Positions 15,238 through 34,069 of a DNA stretch of 34,069 nucleotides are shown in pieces (the stretch's first letter is position 1; each line of letters begins with the position of its first letter). The notes under the pieces are model-generated. The model was not told the origin of the DNA. It did no database searches and saw only the letters and a program-made list of their open reading frames with translations. The DNA comes from Desulfobacteraceae bacterium. Its GTDB lineage: Bacteria; Desulfobacterota; Desulfobacteria; Desulfobacterales; Desulfosalsimonadaceae. The stretch is taken from assembly GCA_003599885.1 (NCBI GenBank), contig QZKW01000029.1:1-34069 (forward strand). The letters are read 5' to 3'. The translations under genes and the position numbers were made by a program.

Positions 15238-15309
15238 ATCTGAAATCCGCAAAGCCGAAACCCAGCCGGCTTTCCCTGTCATTTTTCTGATCAGAATTTG
15301 AGAGTGTAC

Positions 15310-15444
15310 AATAAAACCCTTGTGAATCAAGAATAACCTGTGTAAACAAATATATATAAATATCAGGTGGCTTGACTGCGGTTGCAAAAGATACCGATGA
15401 CCGGCCTCGCTTATTGGAGATATGCAGAAACTTTTGATTAGTGG
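15310..15444 (+). repeat. Leader module, copy A
   Basis: The stretch shares with copies at 21.7 and 23.6 kb a TGTAAACA-like block, an ATATAAATAT block, a GGTGGC...GCGGTT block, and the identical core AGATATGCAGAAACTTTTGA at the 3' end. It lies directly before the sensor gene at 15481. It lacks about 20 bp, including the TATAAT present in the other two copies. Confidence 0.65.
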
Positions 15445-15481
15445 TTGGCAGTTACGCTATTTGAAAAGACAGGGGGACTAA
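15422..15481 (+). other. Mini-ORF MQKLL of leader copy A, overlapping the sensor start
   Basis: A 19-codon frame, MQKLLISGWQLRYLKRQGD, begins in the conserved core and ends in TAA whose last base is the first base of the sensor ATG (TAATG). It may be a coupled leader peptide or the fossil start of another gene. The ribosome site (GGAG two bases before the ATG) is badly spaced, so translation is uncertain. Confidence 0.35.
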
Positions 15482-21244: not shown

Positions 21245-21256
21245 GAGGTCATGACG

Positions 21257-21685
21257 ATGGAAGACTTTATTACAAAAGCAGAAGTTCAGCGGGTGTGTCA
21301 GGAGATCGGTATCCGGGACTGGACCCGACTGACCGAAACCAAAGTTCAGGTGGAAGAAGCCAGAATCATTCAGGCGGCTGTCGGGTCGGAAGCGCTGGAA
21401 ATTCCGGTGGAGTGGTTTCAGCAGGGGTTGGAGGTGGAGCTGGAGCATGGGGTGCAGTTTCCGGATGCGAATGTCACCAACAACCATCCCATCCTGACGG
21501 GCAAGATCGTTCTGGCCCATCTCAAGGAAATGCTGGATTATTACCTCCGGCTGGAAGTCGCGGAGCTGGAAGGCGATCTGTTTAAGGCGTCCAGGGCAGG
21601 GGATGCGGAGAAGATGGCCCGGAAGTACAAAAAATTGATTGTGGCGCGGGCGGCGTTGAGTGAGTGGGAAAATTCCGCAGGGTAA
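21257..21685 (+). CDS. DUF5661 family protein
   Basis: A 142-residue soluble protein. The centre, GLEVELEHG followed by NVTNNHPILTGKIVLAHL and LDYYLRLE, matches the DUF5661 family, of unknown function. The start at 21257 is preferred to the ATG at 21251 because AGGAGG then has an 8-base spacing instead of 2. It starts 12 bp after the DUF3999 stop and may share that operon. Its last 11 codons (ALSEWENSAG and stop) recur at 23563, marking the edge of a duplicated unit. Confidence 0.8.
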   Translation: MEDFITKAEVQRVCQEIGIRDWTRLTETKVQVEEARIIQAAVGSEALEIPVEWFQQGLEVELEHGVQFPDANVTNNHPILTGKIVLAHLKEMLDYYLRLEVAELEGDLFKASRAGDAEKMARKYKKLIVARAALSEWENSAG

Positions 21686-21835
21686 AAGAAGTCCTTGTTT
21701 GTTATAAATATACTGTTTAAATAGGTATATATAAAAATTTGATGCCTGATGCCGGTTTATAATGAGAGAGACATTCCGGCTATAGGAGATATGCAGAAAC
21801 TTTTGAATCACTTGTTGGGCTCAAAAAAACATTGA
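21652..21835 (+). repeat. Leader module, copy B (unit 1)
   Basis: The module begins inside the DUF5661 coding end and runs through an AT-rich stretch with GTTTATAATGA (a TATAAT -10-like box near 21757-21762). It ends with the conserved core AGATATGCAGAAACTTTTGA and ACTTGTTGGGC. From the core ATG at 21791 a 14-codon frame (MQKLLNHLLGSKKH) runs to a TGA at 21833-21835. Over the first 36 bases it differs from copy C at only 3 positions. It precedes the hicA promoter region. Confidence 0.75.
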
Positions 21836-21862
21836 CAGACCGAGCAACTATATATTAGTTGC
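21832..21862 (+). promoter_or_regulatory. Probable hicAB promoter and HicB operator
   Basis: TTGACA at 21832-21837 is a good -35 box, although no close match to TATAAT sits at the right distance. A perfect inverted repeat, GCAACTA (21844-21850), TATAT, TAGTTGC (21856-21862), lies where a -10 box would be. This is what an autorepressor site for an RHH-type HicB antitoxin would look like. Confidence 0.5.
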
Positions 21863-21891
21863 AAATATTGCTTTTACCATGGTAGGGTATA

Positions 21892-22146
21892 ATGTCTAAA
21901 AAAGAAAAGCTACTGGCAAAACTTTGTGCCAGCCCGACACCAAAGAATTTCCCTTGGCACGATCTTATAACGCTAATGGGTAGCTTTGGATTTGAAAGCA
22001 CATGCGGTGGTGGGTCGCACTATATGTTTGAACATTCGAGCGGTTTTCGTTTAAGAATGTCCAAAACACACCCGTCAGGAATTTTAAAAAATTATCAGAT
22101 ACAAGACGTTAAAAATGCACTCAGGCACATAGGGGTTATTCCATGA
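21892..22146 (+). CDS. hicA: HicA family mRNA interferase toxin
   Basis: HicA toxins bind and cleave mRNA and stop translation until neutralised by HicB. The 84-residue protein has the double-stranded-RNA-binding-like fold signature DLITLMGSFGFE, then GGGSHYMFEH with the catalytic His, and a C-terminal helix (YQIQDVKNALRHIGVIP). It is typical in length. TAGGGT lies 4 to 5 bases before the ATG. It overlaps hicB by 4 bp. It is AT-richer than the DUF2339/3999 genes before it, which fits acquired cargo. Confidence 0.88.
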   Translation: MSKKEKLLAKLCASPTPKNFPWHDLITLMGSFGFESTCGGGSHYMFEHSSGFRLRMSKTHPSGILKNYQIQDVKNALRHIGVIP

Positions 22147-22601
22147 GCAATCTTACCTATAAAGGTTACACAGGTACAATTGAAGCCAGCATCGAAGATG
22201 GTTGCCTGCACGGCCAACTTCTTTTTATTGCTGATATTATCACCTATGAAGGGGACACTGTTGATAAGATTAAAACCTCTTTTGAGGAAGCAGTTGACCA
22301 TTATCTTGCATATTGCCAGGATAAAGGGAAGCCAGCTAACAAACCTTATAGTGGCACTTTCAACGTAAGGGTTGGGCAAGAGCTTCACAGAAAAGCTGTT
22401 GAGGTCGCTTATCATCAAGGTATTACGCTCAATGACTTCGTTGCTCAATCTATCAAAAATGCTATAGAAAAAAACGGGGTTATAAGGTTAGAGCACACTC
22501 ATCATCACAATATTACCATAACTGATAACCAAGCATCGAAAACCGTTGTTGCTACAATGGAAAAGCCACGTGCGTGGGAGAAATTACATGCAATCCAATA
22601 A
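22143..22601 (+). CDS. hicB: HicB family antitoxin
   Basis: The 152-residue antitoxin has the degenerate RNase-H-like HicB domain at residues 1-75 (YKGYTGTIEASIEDGCLHG, ITYEGDTVDKIKTSFEEAVDHYL). An RHH-type DNA-binding segment follows (SGTFNVRVGQELHRKAVEVA, ITLNDFVAQSIKNAI). A His-rich tail with four His in the HTHHH region is unusual. HicB binds HicA and represses the operon, probably at the palindrome 21844-21862. It is coupled to hicA (ATGA overlap) and overlaps the next gene. Confidence 0.9.
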   Translation: MSNLTYKGYTGTIEASIEDGCLHGQLLFIADIITYEGDTVDKIKTSFEEAVDHYLAYCQDKGKPANKPYSGTFNVRVGQELHRKAVEVAYHQGITLNDFVAQSIKNAIEKNGVIRLEHTHHHNITITDNQASKTVVATMEKPRAWEKLHAIQ

Positions 22602-22878
22602 GCATCATCCAAATAAAACTGTCGATTTTTCGCTTGTTGAACTAACTGAAATTCTTGTTAAACATCAAAAACTTCACGAAGGACTTTATAATTTGTCTGT
22701 AGAGTTTCAAATAGCTGTTGGGGCTGTAGGGCCGACTCCAGAATTAATAAGCCCAGGCGCAATGATAGGCGTTTCTCGCATTGGATTAGCAAAAACTGAA
22801 AAAGAAAAAGCGAATATTCACACTGTTGATGCTGCCAGTGTTAATCCAGCGCCTAAAAAAGCGGGCAAGAAAAAATAA
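22588..22878 (+). CDS. HicAB-associated small protein
   Basis: A 96-residue protein whose ATG lies inside the end of hicB, 8 bases after GGGAG, making a three-gene operon. Core sequence VELTEILVKHQKLHEGLYNLS and VGAVGPTPELISPGAMIGVSRIGL; the tail is Lys-rich (PAPKKAGKKK). I recall similar small proteins following hicAB-like genes in other proteobacteria, but no named domain. Its function is unknown; a third toxin-antitoxin component or RNA-binding accessory is possible. Confidence 0.75.
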   Translation: MQSNKHHPNKTVDFSLVELTEILVKHQKLHEGLYNLSVEFQIAVGAVGPTPELISPGAMIGVSRIGLAKTEKEKANIHTVDAASVNPAPKKAGKKK

Positions 22879-22924
22879 AGCATGAACATGCAAATGGACC
22901 AACCAAGCGCTGCACATTTGCCTC

Positions 22925-22960
22925 AAGGGGCGCGGGCTTATTGCCGCCCCTTTTGTGTTT
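22925..22960 (+). terminator. Intrinsic terminator of the hicAB operon
   Basis: AAGGGGCG (22925-22932) pairs with CGCCCCTT (22945-22952) around a 12-nt loop, followed by TTGTGTTT. It lies 46 bp after the stop of the third gene. Confidence 0.75.
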
Positions 22961-23024
22961 CCGGTGCTTGTTATATAGATCATCCGCTCTAAGGGCACCA
23001 TTCATGATTGGCCCAAGGGTAATA

Positions 23025-23231
23025 ATGGGACGCTGGATCATCGCCGCAGGATTTATATTGATTGTCATCGGGATGATACTGCATTTCGCCCCCTGGTTTT
23101 TAAGCTGGTTCGGCGGGCTGCCCGGCGATATCCGCATTGTGAAAGAGCGAACCACAATATTTATTCCCATCACGTCCATGCTGCTCATCAGCATCGTGGC
23201 AACGCTCCTGATTAATTTTTTTAAGCGATAG
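23025..23231 (+). CDS. DUF2905 small membrane protein, copy 1
   Basis: A protein of 68 residues with two hydrophobic segments (WIIAAGFILIVIGMIL and MLLISIVATLLINF) around the conserved SWFGGLPGDIRIVKE motif, which is the DUF2905 family pattern. The function is unknown. The ATG at 23025 follows AAGGGT; an in-frame ATG at 23004 is an alternative. It closes unit 1 of the tandem duplication. The paralogue at 25323 carries a frameshift, so this copy is the intact one. Confidence 0.85.
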   Translation: MGRWIIAAGFILIVIGMILHFAPWFLSWFGGLPGDIRIVKERTTIFIPITSMLLISIVATLLINFFKR

Positions 23232-23247
23232 GCATCATTGACGACTC

Positions 23248-23436
23248 CGCAAAAAACTCCCTGCCCCGATGGTTTCCGTGGCGTGGGCAAAAACTCGCTG
23301 GAAAAGTGGAATGATGGGGGCTTGTTATTCCAATAGCGTTTGTCGAAACCCGCAGGTTCATTGGCGTTTATCCGCTCAGACAGTTTGCCCCCGTGATCCA
23401 CGGAAACCATCGGGTCAGGGCCGCATCGCAATGGGA
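23248..23436 (-). repeat. Interspersed palindromic repeat, copy 1
   Basis: The outer arms CCCGATGGTTTCCGTGG (23265-23281) and CCACGGAAACCATCGGG (23398-23414) are perfect 17-bp inverted repeats about 116 bp apart. TGGGCAAA and TTTGCCCC extend the pairing. The reverse complement matches 31024-31211 at both ends, with a diverged middle. No transposase is encoded. The short plus-strand frame inside it at 23269-23472 is not called. It lies between the two duplicated units. Confidence 0.75.
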
Positions 23437-23560
23437 ACAACCCTCCGGCGGTGTGGTTCGGGAATCAATTAAATTCGGGCTGTCGTAAGTCGCTTGTTTT
23501 TGATCAAAAAGCAGAAGCTGCTGAGAATTTTTTGCCCATCGCGCAGCATCCCTGACAGTC

Positions 23561-23752
23561 GGCGTTGAGTGCGTGGGAAAATTCTGCGGGGTAAAAAAAC
23601 GCTTGTTAGGAAAAAAAGTGCTGTGTAAACAGTTGGATATAAATATATGGATGGCGATGGCGGTTATAAAATATCCCCGAAGGCCAGTTTATAATGATAG
23701 AGGCTTTTCGATTATTAGAGATATGCAGAAACTTTTGAATTACTTGTTCGGC
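23561..23752 (+). repeat. Leader module, copy C (unit 2), with fossil DUF5661 end
   Basis: It opens with the last codons of a DUF5661 gene in frame (ALSAWENSAG and stop, 23563-23595). An AT-rich block follows with TGTAAACAG, ATATAAATAT and GTTTATAATGA. It ends in the core AGATATGCAGAAACTTTTGA and ACTTGTTCGGC. The upstream boundary with the preceding DNA is sharp. It lies directly before the sulfatase gene. Confidence 0.75.
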
Positions 23753-23800
23753 AATAAGGTGAATCCCGTCGCCAACTTCACCCTATACAAGAAAGGATAA
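23723..23800 (+). other. Mini-ORF MQKLL of leader copy C, before the sulfatase
   Basis: The 25-codon frame starts at the core ATG (MQKLLNYLFGNKVNPVANF) and ends in TAA 3 bases before the sulfatase ATG. Its last codons supply the sulfatase ribosome site AAAGGA. Whether it is translated is unknown. Confidence 0.35.
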
Positions 23801-23803
23801 AGC

Positions 23804-25225
23804 ATGAAACAAACATTAATTGCGTTCCTGCTGGCAACGTTCGCGGGCTGCCTGGTCTGTCAGGCAGCAGAGAAGCCCAACATCGTCCATATCGTTGCGG
23901 ATGACCTCGGCTGGAAGGATGTCGGATTCAACGGATGTAAGGATATCAAGACGCCGAATCTCGACAAGCTCGCCGCAGAGGGGGCAAAGCTCTCAGAGTT
24001 CTACGTGCAGCCGATGTGCACACCGACGCGTGCGGCATTGATGACTGGCCGTTATCCATTCCGCTACGGCCTGCAAACTGCCGTCATCCCTTCCGTCTCT
24101 GACTACGGCCTGGATACGACCGAGTGGCTCATGCCTCAGTGTCTTAAGGAGGCCGGCTACAGAACTGCCATCATCGGCAAATGGCACCTGGGCCATGCCG
24201 ACAGGAAATATTGGCCGAAACAACGCGGCTTCGACTACCAGTATGGCCCGATGATCGGCGAACTGGATTACTTCACGCACGAGGAGCATGGTGTCCTTGA
24301 TTGGTATCGTGACAACGAGCCGGTTCGTGAAAAGGGATATACCACCCAGCTCCTGGGAAGCGACGCAGTCAAACTTATCGAAAGGCACGATATTTCCAAG
24401 CCGCTCTATCTCTACCTTGCCTTTAACGCCCCCCACACGCCCTATCAAGCGCCGCAGGAATATATCGACCGCTATAAGAACATCGAAGACCCCACCCGCC
24501 GCATCTATGCCGGTATGGTTACGTGCCTCGACGACGAGATCGGGCGTGTCGTTGCCGCACTCGACAAGAAGGGCATCCGCGACAACACGCTCATCCTTTT
24601 TCACAGTGACAACGGTGGCACGAAGAACGCCATGTTCGCGGGCGTCATGGCCGACATGTCGAAGGTGCGGATACCATGCGACAACGGCCCGTATCGGGAT
24701 GGCAAGGGTTCTCTGTTTGAGGGCGGGACGCGCGTCTGCGCTTTCGCCAACTGGCCCGGCCATATCAAGGCACAGACCGTGGACGGGTTGATTCATGCAG
24801 TAGATATCTATCCGACGCTGGCCGCCCTGGCGCAGGCATCCACAGCCAAATGCAAACCACTCGACGGCCTCAATGTCTGGGATACCATCGCCCAGGGCAA
24901 ACCATCGGCCCGCTCGGAAATCGTCTATAATATCGAACCTTTCCGTGCGGCACTGCGTCAAGGCGACTGGAAACTCATCTGGCGCACGATGCTTCCTTCC
25001 AGCGTTGACCTCTATGACCTTTCGAAAGATCCGTCCGAGCAGACCAACCTCGCTGCGACCGACCCCGGCCGGGTTGCCGCGATGCAGGAACGCCTGAACG
25101 CATTGGCGAAGGAAGCTGTGAAGCCGCTCTTCCTAGTGGAGCAGTTCAAAGTCGTCATGAAAAACATGAAAGGAGAACCCGTCCTGCCTATTGATGAAGG
25201 ATTTGGCGACCCAGACCTGCCGTGA
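23804..25225 (+). CDS. Secreted type I sulfatase (S1, formylglycine type)
   Basis: The 473-residue enzyme hydrolyses sulfate esters, probably outside the cytoplasm. Residues 1-22 form a signal peptide; FAGC resembles a lipobox but the -3 residue is Phe. C72-T-P-T-R76 is the CxPxR motif whose Cys becomes formylglycine. Metal and sulfate sites are visible: ADDLGW (Asp33, Asp34), GKWHLGH, NAPHTPY and SDNGG. The length is normal for the S1 family; the substrate is unknown. The gene is GC-rich compared with hicAB and the leader, and has a different character from its neighbours, suggesting transfer. No formylglycine-generating enzyme is in the window. It is the cargo of unit 2. Confidence 0.93.
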   Translation: MKQTLIAFLLATFAGCLVCQAAEKPNIVHIVADDLGWKDVGFNGCKDIKTPNLDKLAAEGAKLSEFYVQPMCTPTRAALMTGRYPFRYGLQTAVIPSVSDYGLDTTEWLMPQCLKEAGYRTAIIGKWHLGHADRKYWPKQRGFDYQYGPMIGELDYFTHEEHGVLDWYRDNEPVREKGYTTQLLGSDAVKLIERHDISKPLYLYLAFNAPHTPYQAPQEYIDRYKNIEDPTRRIYAGMVTCLDDEIGRVVAALDKKGIRDNTLILFHSDNGGTKNAMFAGVMADMSKVRIPCDNGPYRDGKGSLFEGGTRVCAFANWPGHIKAQTVDGLIHAVDIYPTLAALAQASTAKCKPLDGLNVWDTIAQGKPSARSEIVYNIEPFRAALRQGDWKLIWRTMLPSSVDLYDLSKDPSEQTNLAATDPGRVAAMQERLNALAKEAVKPLFLVEQFKVVMKNMKGEPVLPIDEGFGDPDLP

Positions 25226-25322
25226 CAAGGCAGGACAATGACGTACGGGCTCAGATTGATTCTTCTCCAGAAAAATAATCACCCACTTTAAAGGCTTTAT
25301 TCATGATTGGCCAAAGGTACTA

Positions 25323-25528
25323 ATGGGGTGCTGGATCATCGCAGCAGGATTCATATTGATTGTCATCGGGGCGATACTTCATTTCGCCCCTGGCTTCTCA
25401 GCTGGTTCGGCAGGCTGCCCGGCGATATCCGTATTGTGAAGGCACGAGCCACCATCTTTATTCCCATCACGTCCATGTTGCTCATCAGCATCGTGGCAAC
25501 GCTTTTGATTAATTTCTTTAAGCGATAG
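25323..25528 (+). pseudogene. DUF2905 gene, copy 2, frameshifted
   Basis: This is closely similar to 23025-23231 throughout, including the flank from TTCATGATTGGCC. From the ATG at 25323 it reads MGCWIIAAGFILIVIG to HFAP. One C is missing from the run that reads GCCCCCTGG in copy 1, which shifts the frame. The rest (WLLSWFGRLPGDIRIVKARA to FKR and TAG) continues in the next frame. The second half is otherwise well preserved, so the frameshift looks recent. Confidence 0.85.
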
Positions 25529-26314: not shown

Positions 26315-27835
26315 CTATCCCCCTTTAATCACCCCGGCCGCCACTACATACACCAGCGAGGACGAGGGATTTAACCCCAGCAGACGCCGCGCTTCCCCAT
26401 CATAAATGGCCCCGATCCCGCAGGCCCCCAACCCAAGAGCCGTCGCTCCCAGGTACACCGCATGCCCCAGCCGCCCGGCCGTCAGCATGGCATACCGGTA
26501 TCCCCGTGCGCCCCACTGCCGGTCAAGCACATCCAGATTCGTCATAAACAAAAACTGAACCCCGGCATTGGCCAGCCACTGCTGATCCAGACTGACAGCC
26601 GCCATCTCACCGGTCACATTCCCTTCAAACACCCGGTGAAGCCTCCGCAGCCTCACGTCCACCAGATAAAAGCCGGGAGGCGTTCCGTCCACATTTCCCA
26701 CCAGCAGGCCCACGGCAATGGCGGATGAATACCCCTGCCCGCCATCAGTTGAGACATCCGACGCCCGGCAGATCAGATCCACCATAAACGCCAACTGATC
26801 GCTATGCATGGGCTGCTGCACAAAATTTCTCCGGGACCGGCGGGCAGAAACGGTCCGGGCATAGGAAAGGAGCTGTTTTTCCAGAGCATCCGGAGAGGAG
26901 ACGGCCCCAAAAGGAACAGGCAACAATCCCAAACAGGCGGCCATATCCACAGGCGGCCCGGCGGGCGGGACAATATCGCTCCCCGCCCGGTGAATGTCTA
27001 AAATTTCATGATACCGGATTTCCCTTTCAGATGTTTTACTCGCGCCCCGAATGCTTTCCGGCAGGACCTCGATTCTGAGCCCCGGCGATTTTTTCAGCTC
27101 AACGGCTCCTTTTCCGCTGCCGTATACATAAACGCACCCGATGCTGACCTCCTTTTCCGGATCAAAACCCAGCAAGTGATTTACGGCCGCATCATCAAAC
27201 GCGTATACCAGCCGGCAGGAAAATCCGGCGGCACGAACCGCGAGCCGCAGACTTTCCATGACATGTCCTGCGTCCATCAGCACGTAGCGATACGCCCGCT
27301 TTCTGTATTTCCACGCACTGCGAAAAAATATGCCGGAAACAAAAAAGACCGCGATGGGACCGGATTTCTCATCTTCGGCAAAGGCATGGACTGCCGGTAC
27401 AAAATTTCCGGTCCGCAGCGGTGTGAGGCTTCGGTTGTGAACGCCGTAATGGAAAACACCGGGGGCCAGGCCGCCGCCCCCCGGCCATACCAGATAAATT
27501 TCATTGGGATACAGGGCGCCTGCGGACGGCGCGCTGCGAAAATAAAAATCCGCCCCTCCCTGCCGGGCTTTTCCGGTCAGGCCATTCGCCAGATAAAGAA
27601 TTCTGGACAGGTCTTCCAGACCCGGAACATTTTCGGATGAGGAGAAGCCTTCCCCCTCATAAACCTGGCGCAGGCTTCCGGGATACAAACCGCTGATTTC
27701 CGGCAGATGGACCGGCGCTATCCCCTGATAAGTCTTATACGGCACGGGCTGATGCGCCCAGTCCAGAAAATGGGGCTCCATGCCCTGCCGGTCGTATTCA
27801 GTCCCATAATGATAATCCTGCAAAAAGGTTTTCAT
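26315..27835 (-). CDS. SagB/ThcOx-type nitroreductase, two tandem domains
   Basis: A 506-residue FMN-dependent oxidoreductase-like protein made of two nitroreductase-fold domains. The first (about 60-250) has RSAPSAGALYPNEIYLV, the SagB-type signature, and YRYVLMDAGHVMESLRLAVRAAG. The second (about 325-506) has SARRSRRNFVQQPM, RYAMLTAGRLGHAVYLGATALGLGACGIG and a VYVVAAGV end. SagB-type enzymes oxidise azolines in peptide natural products, but many members have other roles. No cyclodehydratase or precursor peptide is visible here, so such a role cannot be assigned. GGGAGA precedes the ATG. It is divergent from the hydrolase at 28017. Confidence 0.85.
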   Translation of the reverse strand: MKTFLQDYHYGTEYDRQGMEPHFLDWAHQPVPYKTYQGIAPVHLPEISGLYPGSLRQVYEGEGFSSSENVPGLEDLSRILYLANGLTGKARQGGADFYFRSAPSAGALYPNEIYLVWPGGGGLAPGVFHYGVHNRSLTPLRTGNFVPAVHAFAEDEKSGPIAVFFVSGIFFRSAWKYRKRAYRYVLMDAGHVMESLRLAVRAAGFSCRLVYAFDDAAVNHLLGFDPEKEVSIGCVYVYGSGKGAVELKKSPGLRIEVLPESIRGASKTSEREIRYHEILDIHRAGSDIVPPAGPPVDMAACLGLLPVPFGAVSSPDALEKQLLSYARTVSARRSRRNFVQQPMHSDQLAFMVDLICRASDVSTDGGQGYSSAIAVGLLVGNVDGTPPGFYLVDVRLRRLHRVFEGNVTGEMAAVSLDQQWLANAGVQFLFMTNLDVLDRQWGARGYRYAMLTAGRLGHAVYLGATALGLGACGIGAIYDGEARRLLGLNPSSSLVYVVAAGVIKGG

Positions 27836-31023: not shown

Positions 31024-31211
31024 TGCCCATTGCGATGCGGCCCTGAGCCTGATGGTTTTCGTGGATACGGGGGCAAACTGTTTGAGCGGATCGGAATCAA
31101 CAAACCCGTCGCCACCGATAAACAGGATCAGTAGAATCACTCCCGGCCATCCTCTTTATCAGCGAGTTTTTGCCCACGCCACGGAAACCGAAGGGGCAGG
31201 GAGTTTTCCGC
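31024..31211 (+). repeat. Interspersed palindromic repeat, copy 2
   Basis: It matches the reverse complement of 23248-23436 at both ends: GCCCATTGCGATGCGGCCC on the left and GTTTTTGCCCACGCCACGG on the right. The middle 70 or so bases are diverged. The internal inverted arms are less perfect than in copy 1. It sits between the alcohol dehydrogenase and XRE regulator genes, in a stretch without genes (30916-31298). Confidence 0.7.
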
Positions 31212-33801: not shown

Positions 33802-34069
33802 TGGGAATCGCGCCGAGGCAAGCTCGGCATATCTTACGGGGTGGAAGTCCCCGTCGGGTAAGGGTTAGCCACCCACCCGTATCGAGTCTTGCACCTGTGG
33901 CGGAGTCGGCAGAGAGGCCGACGAACAAGACAGGTGAAGCGTAGACAGAGAATCCTGCAGGCCGCAGGGGGTGTCGCGGCCCCTGAAGTGCTGGTACAGC
34001 TTCGAAATGAGTGAGATGCGGACGCCGAGGGTTTTGCCCTTCGCCGAAGGCAACACAGAAGCATCCGTT
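33802..34069 (+). mobile_element. Candidate 5' RNA region of a group II intron (cut by window end)
   Basis: The stretch is G-rich, structured and non-coding, with short hairpins GCCGAG/CTCGGC (33812-33828) and GGGG-TGGAAGT-CCCC (33838-33852). Phrases such as GTCGGGTAAGGGTTAGCCAC, CGGAGTCGGCAGAGAGGCCG and GGTGAAGCGTAGACAGAG resemble domain I of bacterial group II introns upstream of a reverse transcriptase/maturase ORF (from memory). A GTGYG 5' boundary is not evident, so the left limit is approximate. The maturase gene, if present, lies beyond the window. Confidence 0.45.

Follow-up and report, generated by a model that had tools for sequence, protein, structure and literature searches.

The question raised by a 34,069-nucleotide stretch of a Desulfobacteraceae bacterium genome (assembly GCA_003599885.1, contig QZKW01000029.1, positions 1 to 34,069; the whole stretch is called the window below) is how two tandem units came to have common left and right edges and unrelated cargo, a hicAB pair in unit 1 (21651-23231) and a sulfatase gene in unit 2 (23560-25528). 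The comparisons described here, which are computational throughout, indicate that the common left edge very probably consists of an integron attI site and its leader, which in this place have no integrase gene beside them. They also point to a tandem duplication of the units, in which one or both attI may have received another cassette. All the features of the window are on the plus strand unless stated otherwise, and G, C and L numbers denote genomes, contigs and loci, respectively.

The initial annotation had described two tandem units with the same edges and cargoes that were unlike and differed in composition, and this description was borne out. Direct repeats joined 21651-21690 to 23560-23599 (90% identity), 21751-21820 to 23683-23752 (84%), 22979-23018 to 25278-25317 (80%), 23013-23092 to 25311-25390 (89%) and 23090-23231 to 25387-25528 (89%). 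Over the whole alignments the left edges were 79.9% identical (135/169) and the right edges, which hold the DUF2905 gene (23028-23231 in unit 1; Pfam, 71.4 bits), 87.6% (220/251). Within this gene the offset between the repeats changed from 2298 to 2297, showing that the second copy (25307-25528) is one base short and frameshifted, as had been proposed. Between the edges, similarity of the cargo (21821-22978 and 23753-25277) was limited to one 21-nt stretch, and the G+C content was 40.6% in unit 1 and 55.9% in unit 2. The 21-nt stretch, 90% alike, lay at the end of the first cargo (22866-22886) and directly 5' of the sulfatase start (23788-23808).

A Pfam scan of the units named DUF5661, HicB, DUF2905 and sulfatase. 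The cargo of unit 1 comprises a hicA-like gene (21892-22146; HicA_toxin, 23.7 bits, below the cut-off of 27), a hicB gene (22143-22601; 64.6 bits, above its cut-off) and a third open reading frame (ORF; 22591-22878) without a family match. The adjacent hicA-like and hicB genes are a putative HicAB toxin-antitoxin pair, for which PADLOC gave no match. The sulfatase gene of unit 2 (23804-25225; 204.5 bits) is of a common kind, as its search in plasmid records returned 795 records.

The left edge had been taken for the end of a DUF5661 gene followed by a leader. The repeat was real: the DUF5661 gene (21251-21685; PF18905, 37.4 bits) is the 5' neighbour of unit 1, and its last bases recur to the left of unit 2, where 23560-23599 is a copy of the 3' end of the gene together with the start of the module that follows. 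However, according to our reading of an alignment of eight leader copies, DUF5661 has no more than about the first 20 bases of the repeat to itself, and the remainder is a dispersed module with ten copies in this genome. The unit 1 leader was 79.9% identical to that of unit 2 and 81.0% identical (147 aligned positions) to a copy on contig C1. Because it was no closer to the former than to the latter, the leader alone is no proof of tandem duplication, which is indicated instead by the common DUF5661 tail and DUF2905 gene.

Copies of the leader were collected by BLAST of the unit 1 leader on its own genome, alignment of eight of them and a search of 60 genomes with a covariance model (R1). This model matched in 5 of the 60 genomes, with ten copies in the present one, two in each of G001 and G007, which belong to its genus, and one in G018, which shares its family; the fifth match, in G051, was discarded (E-value 0.0025, ten mismatches in the core). 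Both leader-bearing units of the initial annotation were thus confirmed, but the window holds a third copy, at 15278-15461 (core 15420-15446; R1, 140.3 bits), with a degenerate end and located 5' of a 497-amino-acid (aa) ORF. This ORF had no Pfam match, and a gene for a DUF2339 membrane protein also lies 3' of the site.

Seven of the ten copies had at most two mismatches in the core, and the likeness among these ended at CTTGTT or similar; the copy at 15.4 kb of the window and those on C5 and at C36:34523 were degraded. The cargo behind the copies of this genome included HicAB, the sulfatase, an O-methyltransferase, a YfbU protein, a TIR protein (C5) and unnamed ORFs. In G001 there was an AbiU/AIPR gene at one site and a SIR2 gene (C368) at a site reduced to the left half of the module; the latter and the TIR site with its degraded core (G000:C5) were not counted as clean sites. 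When genome contigs were scanned for the core, 10 stretches were found, belonging by record title to Syntrophaceae (4), Desulfobacteraceae (2), Desulfobacterales (1), Deltaproteobacteria (2) and Proteobacteria (1). A search of 395 genomes from the phylum found the core pattern in 24, this one included, and a search of 155 from the order to which G065 belongs found it in 21; the reversed pattern, used as a control, occurred in none of either set. An IMG/VR match (L113) was dropped, its core being within a long ORF and the module absent. We also rejected the leader as attC, the cassette recombination site (no inverted left box was seen by eye at the 5' end, and the leader was absent from the attC scans of the window), and as an RNA family (none at the Rfam gathering score; RNAalifold predicted no more than 14 pairs, which made up three short helices).

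An attI is a site at a near-fixed distance from a divergent integrase gene (intI), ahead of the cassettes. On contig C12 of G064 (JACQWR010000014.1), one of the 10 stretches mentioned above, an open frame of 504 codons adjoins the site divergently and matched TIGR02249 with 383 bits (cut-off 265); the integrase has 495 aa from the ATG at L148:875 (L148:875-2359), which is 235 bp from the GTT, and about its first 180 residues had no Pfam family match. The integrase survey covered 57 loci from two core-pattern searches, some being one place found twice, with up to 1.5 kb of flank. Six distinct loci (L171, L174, L185, L187 = L200, L192 and L201) had a divergent integrase sequence starting 145-221 bp upstream of the site; intactness was checked for part of the six, and those of L174 and L185 seem to be interrupted. 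At L210 and L224 the integrase beside the site was reduced to about its first 42 residues, inner or C-terminal pieces were found at L183 and L188, and no integrase was counted at the remaining loci within the flank covered. We excluded from the count of attI with intI a weak match 1.15 kb upstream (L208) and a match downstream (L198). The series of whole integrase, fragment and none suggests how orphan attI arise.

When compared with ten integron integrases of our choosing, the six fell on one side of a branch with support of 100/100, as a clade on a long branch. At the sites beside other integron integrases of the order, the same attI was not supported (the best E-value of R1 in 30 loci that had integrase matches was 0.38). 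The near-fixed distance from a divergent intI, in front of cassettes, identifies the leader family as attI. The initial annotation had seen no recombinase, a statement that did not hold beyond this genome, since an integron integrase adjoins the same site in others.

The hallmarks of cassettes were examined over 78 sites, that is, leader ends counted apart if their 50 bases differed; related sites are included and are not independent, and the copies at C36:34523, C5, G001:C368, G018:C90 and 15.4 kb of the window are absent from the set. The four bases after GTT were compared with RRRY (three purines and a pyrimidine) and showed no mismatch in 24 sites, one in 31, two in 15, three in 7 and four in 1. 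At most one mismatch was therefore present in 55/78, against about 24/78 by chance (5 in 16, our arithmetic). In the window the R boxes are GTTGGGC in unit 1 (21814-21820) and GTTCGGC, with one mismatch, in unit 2 (23746-23752). An attC-like site was located within 2 kb downstream of 15/78 sites and upstream of 0/78, and there were 4 hits in 353 kb of downstream DNA shuffled by single bases. A cassette is expected to have an attC whose left box is complementary to the first bases of that same cassette, and an attC with a left box fitting its own cassette start was found at 19/78 sites, compared with 0-7 in 20 permutations (at a threshold set by us). Three of the 19 were in this genome, on C36 (perfect box match, fold z-score -4.1), C2 (one mismatch) and C1. 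When the first ORF to reach 80 aa was taken for each site, 64 of 72 were read away from the site, on the same strand, six more not being judged, and the ORF start lay a median of 20.5 bases from the edge. These results together showed the leaders to be a family of attI sites whose cargo, as a set, obeys integron rules.

A cassette-like port had been proposed for the two units. It stood in so far as the leader precedes unrelated genes wherever the cargo is annotated, but the port is the leader and not the arrangement DUF5661-X-DUF2905. Of the parts of this arrangement, which had been suggested as something to look for in related genomes, DUF5661 was present in 3/60 genomes and DNA of the DUF2905 edge in 1/40, this genome being counted in both. 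One port lies in the nuo operon, with different cargo in two genera. In G007 the leader lies between nuoH-nuoI and nuoJ-nuoK and is followed by an 81-aa ORF and an attC-like hairpin (fold z-score -6.2); in G018 it is likewise 3' of nuoH-nuoI, with other cargo that includes a PIN gene, and the contig stops before any nuoJ. Between the two, the attI was 92.4% and the nuoI flank 88.8% alike, and the cargo had no match. Contig C82 of G062 (L105:1-5400) bears three attI sites in tandem with differing cargo between them, namely HicA and UPF0150 (HicB-like) genes and a second pair with BrnT and CopG matches below their cut-offs. A PIN gene lies upstream and its 3' end recurs before the third site (97.4% over 227 bp), so that this locus repeats the plan of the window, fossil gene end included.

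In the window the orphan attI of unit 1 extends over 21690-21820 (core 21786-21816, ending in GTT at 21814-21816) and that of unit 2 over 23600-23752 (core 23718-23748). Both were delimited by the repeats, the alignment and R1, and the identity of the first as attI comes from the intI-bearing loci elsewhere. Behind the third ORF of unit 1, an attC-like stretch (GACCAAC...GTTATAT, 22897-22976) has a left box one base off the prediction. Since it stops two bases short of the common right edge, its position fits the end of a cassette. We consider this stretch a probable decayed attC and the hicAB cargo as likely of cassette origin; the sulfatase cargo may have had such an origin too.

Several observations weigh against this interpretation. 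The attC-like stretch of unit 1 folded no better than shuffles (z-score -0.45) and appeared only in the looser scan, among eight best that included unrelated places; the stricter scans were without it, and the six rows that the stricter palindrome scan gave over both strands of the window came down to three places, not one of them at the end of a cargo. Behind the sulfatase no attC was recognised, and 25151-25310 contains neither a GTT nor a stretch that fits the predicted left box with up to one mismatch. In the wider set, 59/78 sites had no matched attC, many of them with only 1.5 kb of downstream sequence, eight first ORFs were oriented towards the site, and the match on C1 is probably due to chance, being 4.3 kb away with a box that lacks AAC. 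The left half of the module of this genome is unlike that of the intI-bearing sites, so the link between them rests on the 29-base core. Finally, queries with integron integrases found nothing beside 9/10 leader copies of this genome; the tenth (C77), at a contig end, has only 59 bases upstream to judge.

The explanation closest to the initial annotation, a plain tandem duplication followed by a swap of cargo through homologous recombination between the flanks, with the leader as merely a flank, is improbable as a whole. It agrees with the fact that both edges are common, but the leader is found at eight further places here, and 3' of nuoI in two genera, with other right flanks. We accept the duplication; a swap by homologous recombination is not needed.

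There is a similarly small chance that attI and cassette were carried as a unit on a miniature element, here a repeat of 180 bp that has inverted ends. At least 36 copies spanning at least 129/181 bases were present in 4.5 Mb (53 matches listed; 40 of 71 candidates scored). The repeat lies at 23250-23430 between the two units of the window and about 17 bp before the module at C36:27076. It also flanks the C12 site on either side, at distances of about 0.2 and 2.1 kb, and follows the C2 site at 1.2 kb, and is therefore near 5/10 attI copies (C36:27076, C12, C2 and units 1 and 2). However, the other 5/10 had no repeat within 2.5 kb among the matches listed, and the association was noticed only afterwards. 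A further copy of the repeat occurs at 31031-31207 of the window.

It is very improbable that the leader is just a mobile or shared promoter or 5' untranslated region copied ahead of unrelated genes without site-specific recombination, since the conserved AT-rich left module, the short distance and common strand of the first ORFs and the many sites lacking a matched attC would suit this, but a divergent intI of one clade at a near-fixed distance in six loci, the RRRY rule and the cassette-matched attC would not.

For the attI interpretation we propose the following course. An integron integrase of the long clade (495 aa in the best-kept case) would recombine at G^TT of the attI, inserting circular cassettes whose gene would start directly behind the site and read away from it, with expression probably from a promoter in the attI module. 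The cassette of unit 1 would consist of hicA, hicB and the third ORF plus the probable decayed attC. The block made up of the DUF5661 tail, attI, cargo and DUF2905 would have been duplicated in tandem, which would account for the common right edge, and one or both attI may have received another cassette, giving rise to the difference in cargo. That both cargoes entered by integrase, and the order of duplication and insertion, we infer.

In this genome (assembly 98.8% complete), TIGR02249 gave three matches at 1e-20 or better, none above the cut-off, and no intact intI. One is a C-terminal intI piece (C2:99961-100380), another an interrupted piece that contains a stop (C1:239445-239699), and the third, on C16, is in our reading an ORF of XerC/D type. 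The C2 and C1 pieces matched short-type integrases better than the long one. The phage integrase family had 17 matches, ten of which were inspected as ORFs. Because only intI fragments located away from the sites were found here, the attI ports of this genome look frozen now.

Candidates for the spread of attI to ten places are several old integrons each losing its intI, tandem duplication (two cases seen), cassettes ended by attI, and carriage by the 180-bp repeat. A distributed multi-port integron, in which attI multiplied over the chromosome as separate ports for an integrase acting in trans and single cassettes, defence genes included, were set behind a promoter, even within a housekeeping operon, and not queued in one array, is a tentative idea that we regard as rather unlikely. 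Elsewhere in the window we found a SagB-type dehydrogenase gene on the minus strand (26315-27835; TIGR03605, 164.2 bits) and the start of a group II intron (33844-34069; RF02005, 91.7 bits), truncated by the window end.

These loci resemble a complete chromosomal integron in the divergent intI at attI in six loci of other genomes and the matching attC at part of the sites. They differ in that ten attI are present here, each ahead of other genes; nine had no visible intI and one was not judged. Clusters of attC without integrase (CALIN) are counted by default from two attC sites up, and loss of intI and off-target insertion are proposed as their origins (PMC9024848, PMC8618304). CALIN likewise hold cassettes without a neighbouring integrase, whereas the present loci are defined by attI, often with one attC or none; against the two or more attC without intI of CALIN, our own scans placed no more than one weak attC-like site at the end of a cargo in the window. 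A third report describes Delta-attI-type cassettes of mobile integrons (attI-ORF-attI), which carry attI or a remnant of it at the 3' end in place of attC, and attG, divergent non-classical sites for cassette insertion into genomes (PMC12901181). The three tandem attI of G062 with genes between them are like the former, but the copies here are scattered and stand upstream of genes. The occurrence of cassettes at ordinary places of the chromosome, even within an operon, recalls attG, but here one conserved attI family is involved. Long integron integrases of clade 15, about 120 aa longer on average, and intI pseudogenes amounting to nearly one third of the intI genes, are both reported in PMC2426708. 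The G064 integrase resembles clade 15 in its length of 495 aa, with about the first 180 lacking a Pfam match.

Integrons, the decay of intI and CALIN are already known; no description of dispersed attI without intI was found in the open-access literature searched. Integrons are usually sought by means of their integrase and attC sites. A conserved attI that outlives its intI offers a third handle, a fixed and alignable mark of the left end of cassettes. It points to cassettes that would otherwise pass for ordinary accessory genes, at the annotated sites AbiU, PIN, HicAB, BrnT-like and restriction-like genes. Should the attI copies still be active in trans, a single genome would have many expression ports and not one array.

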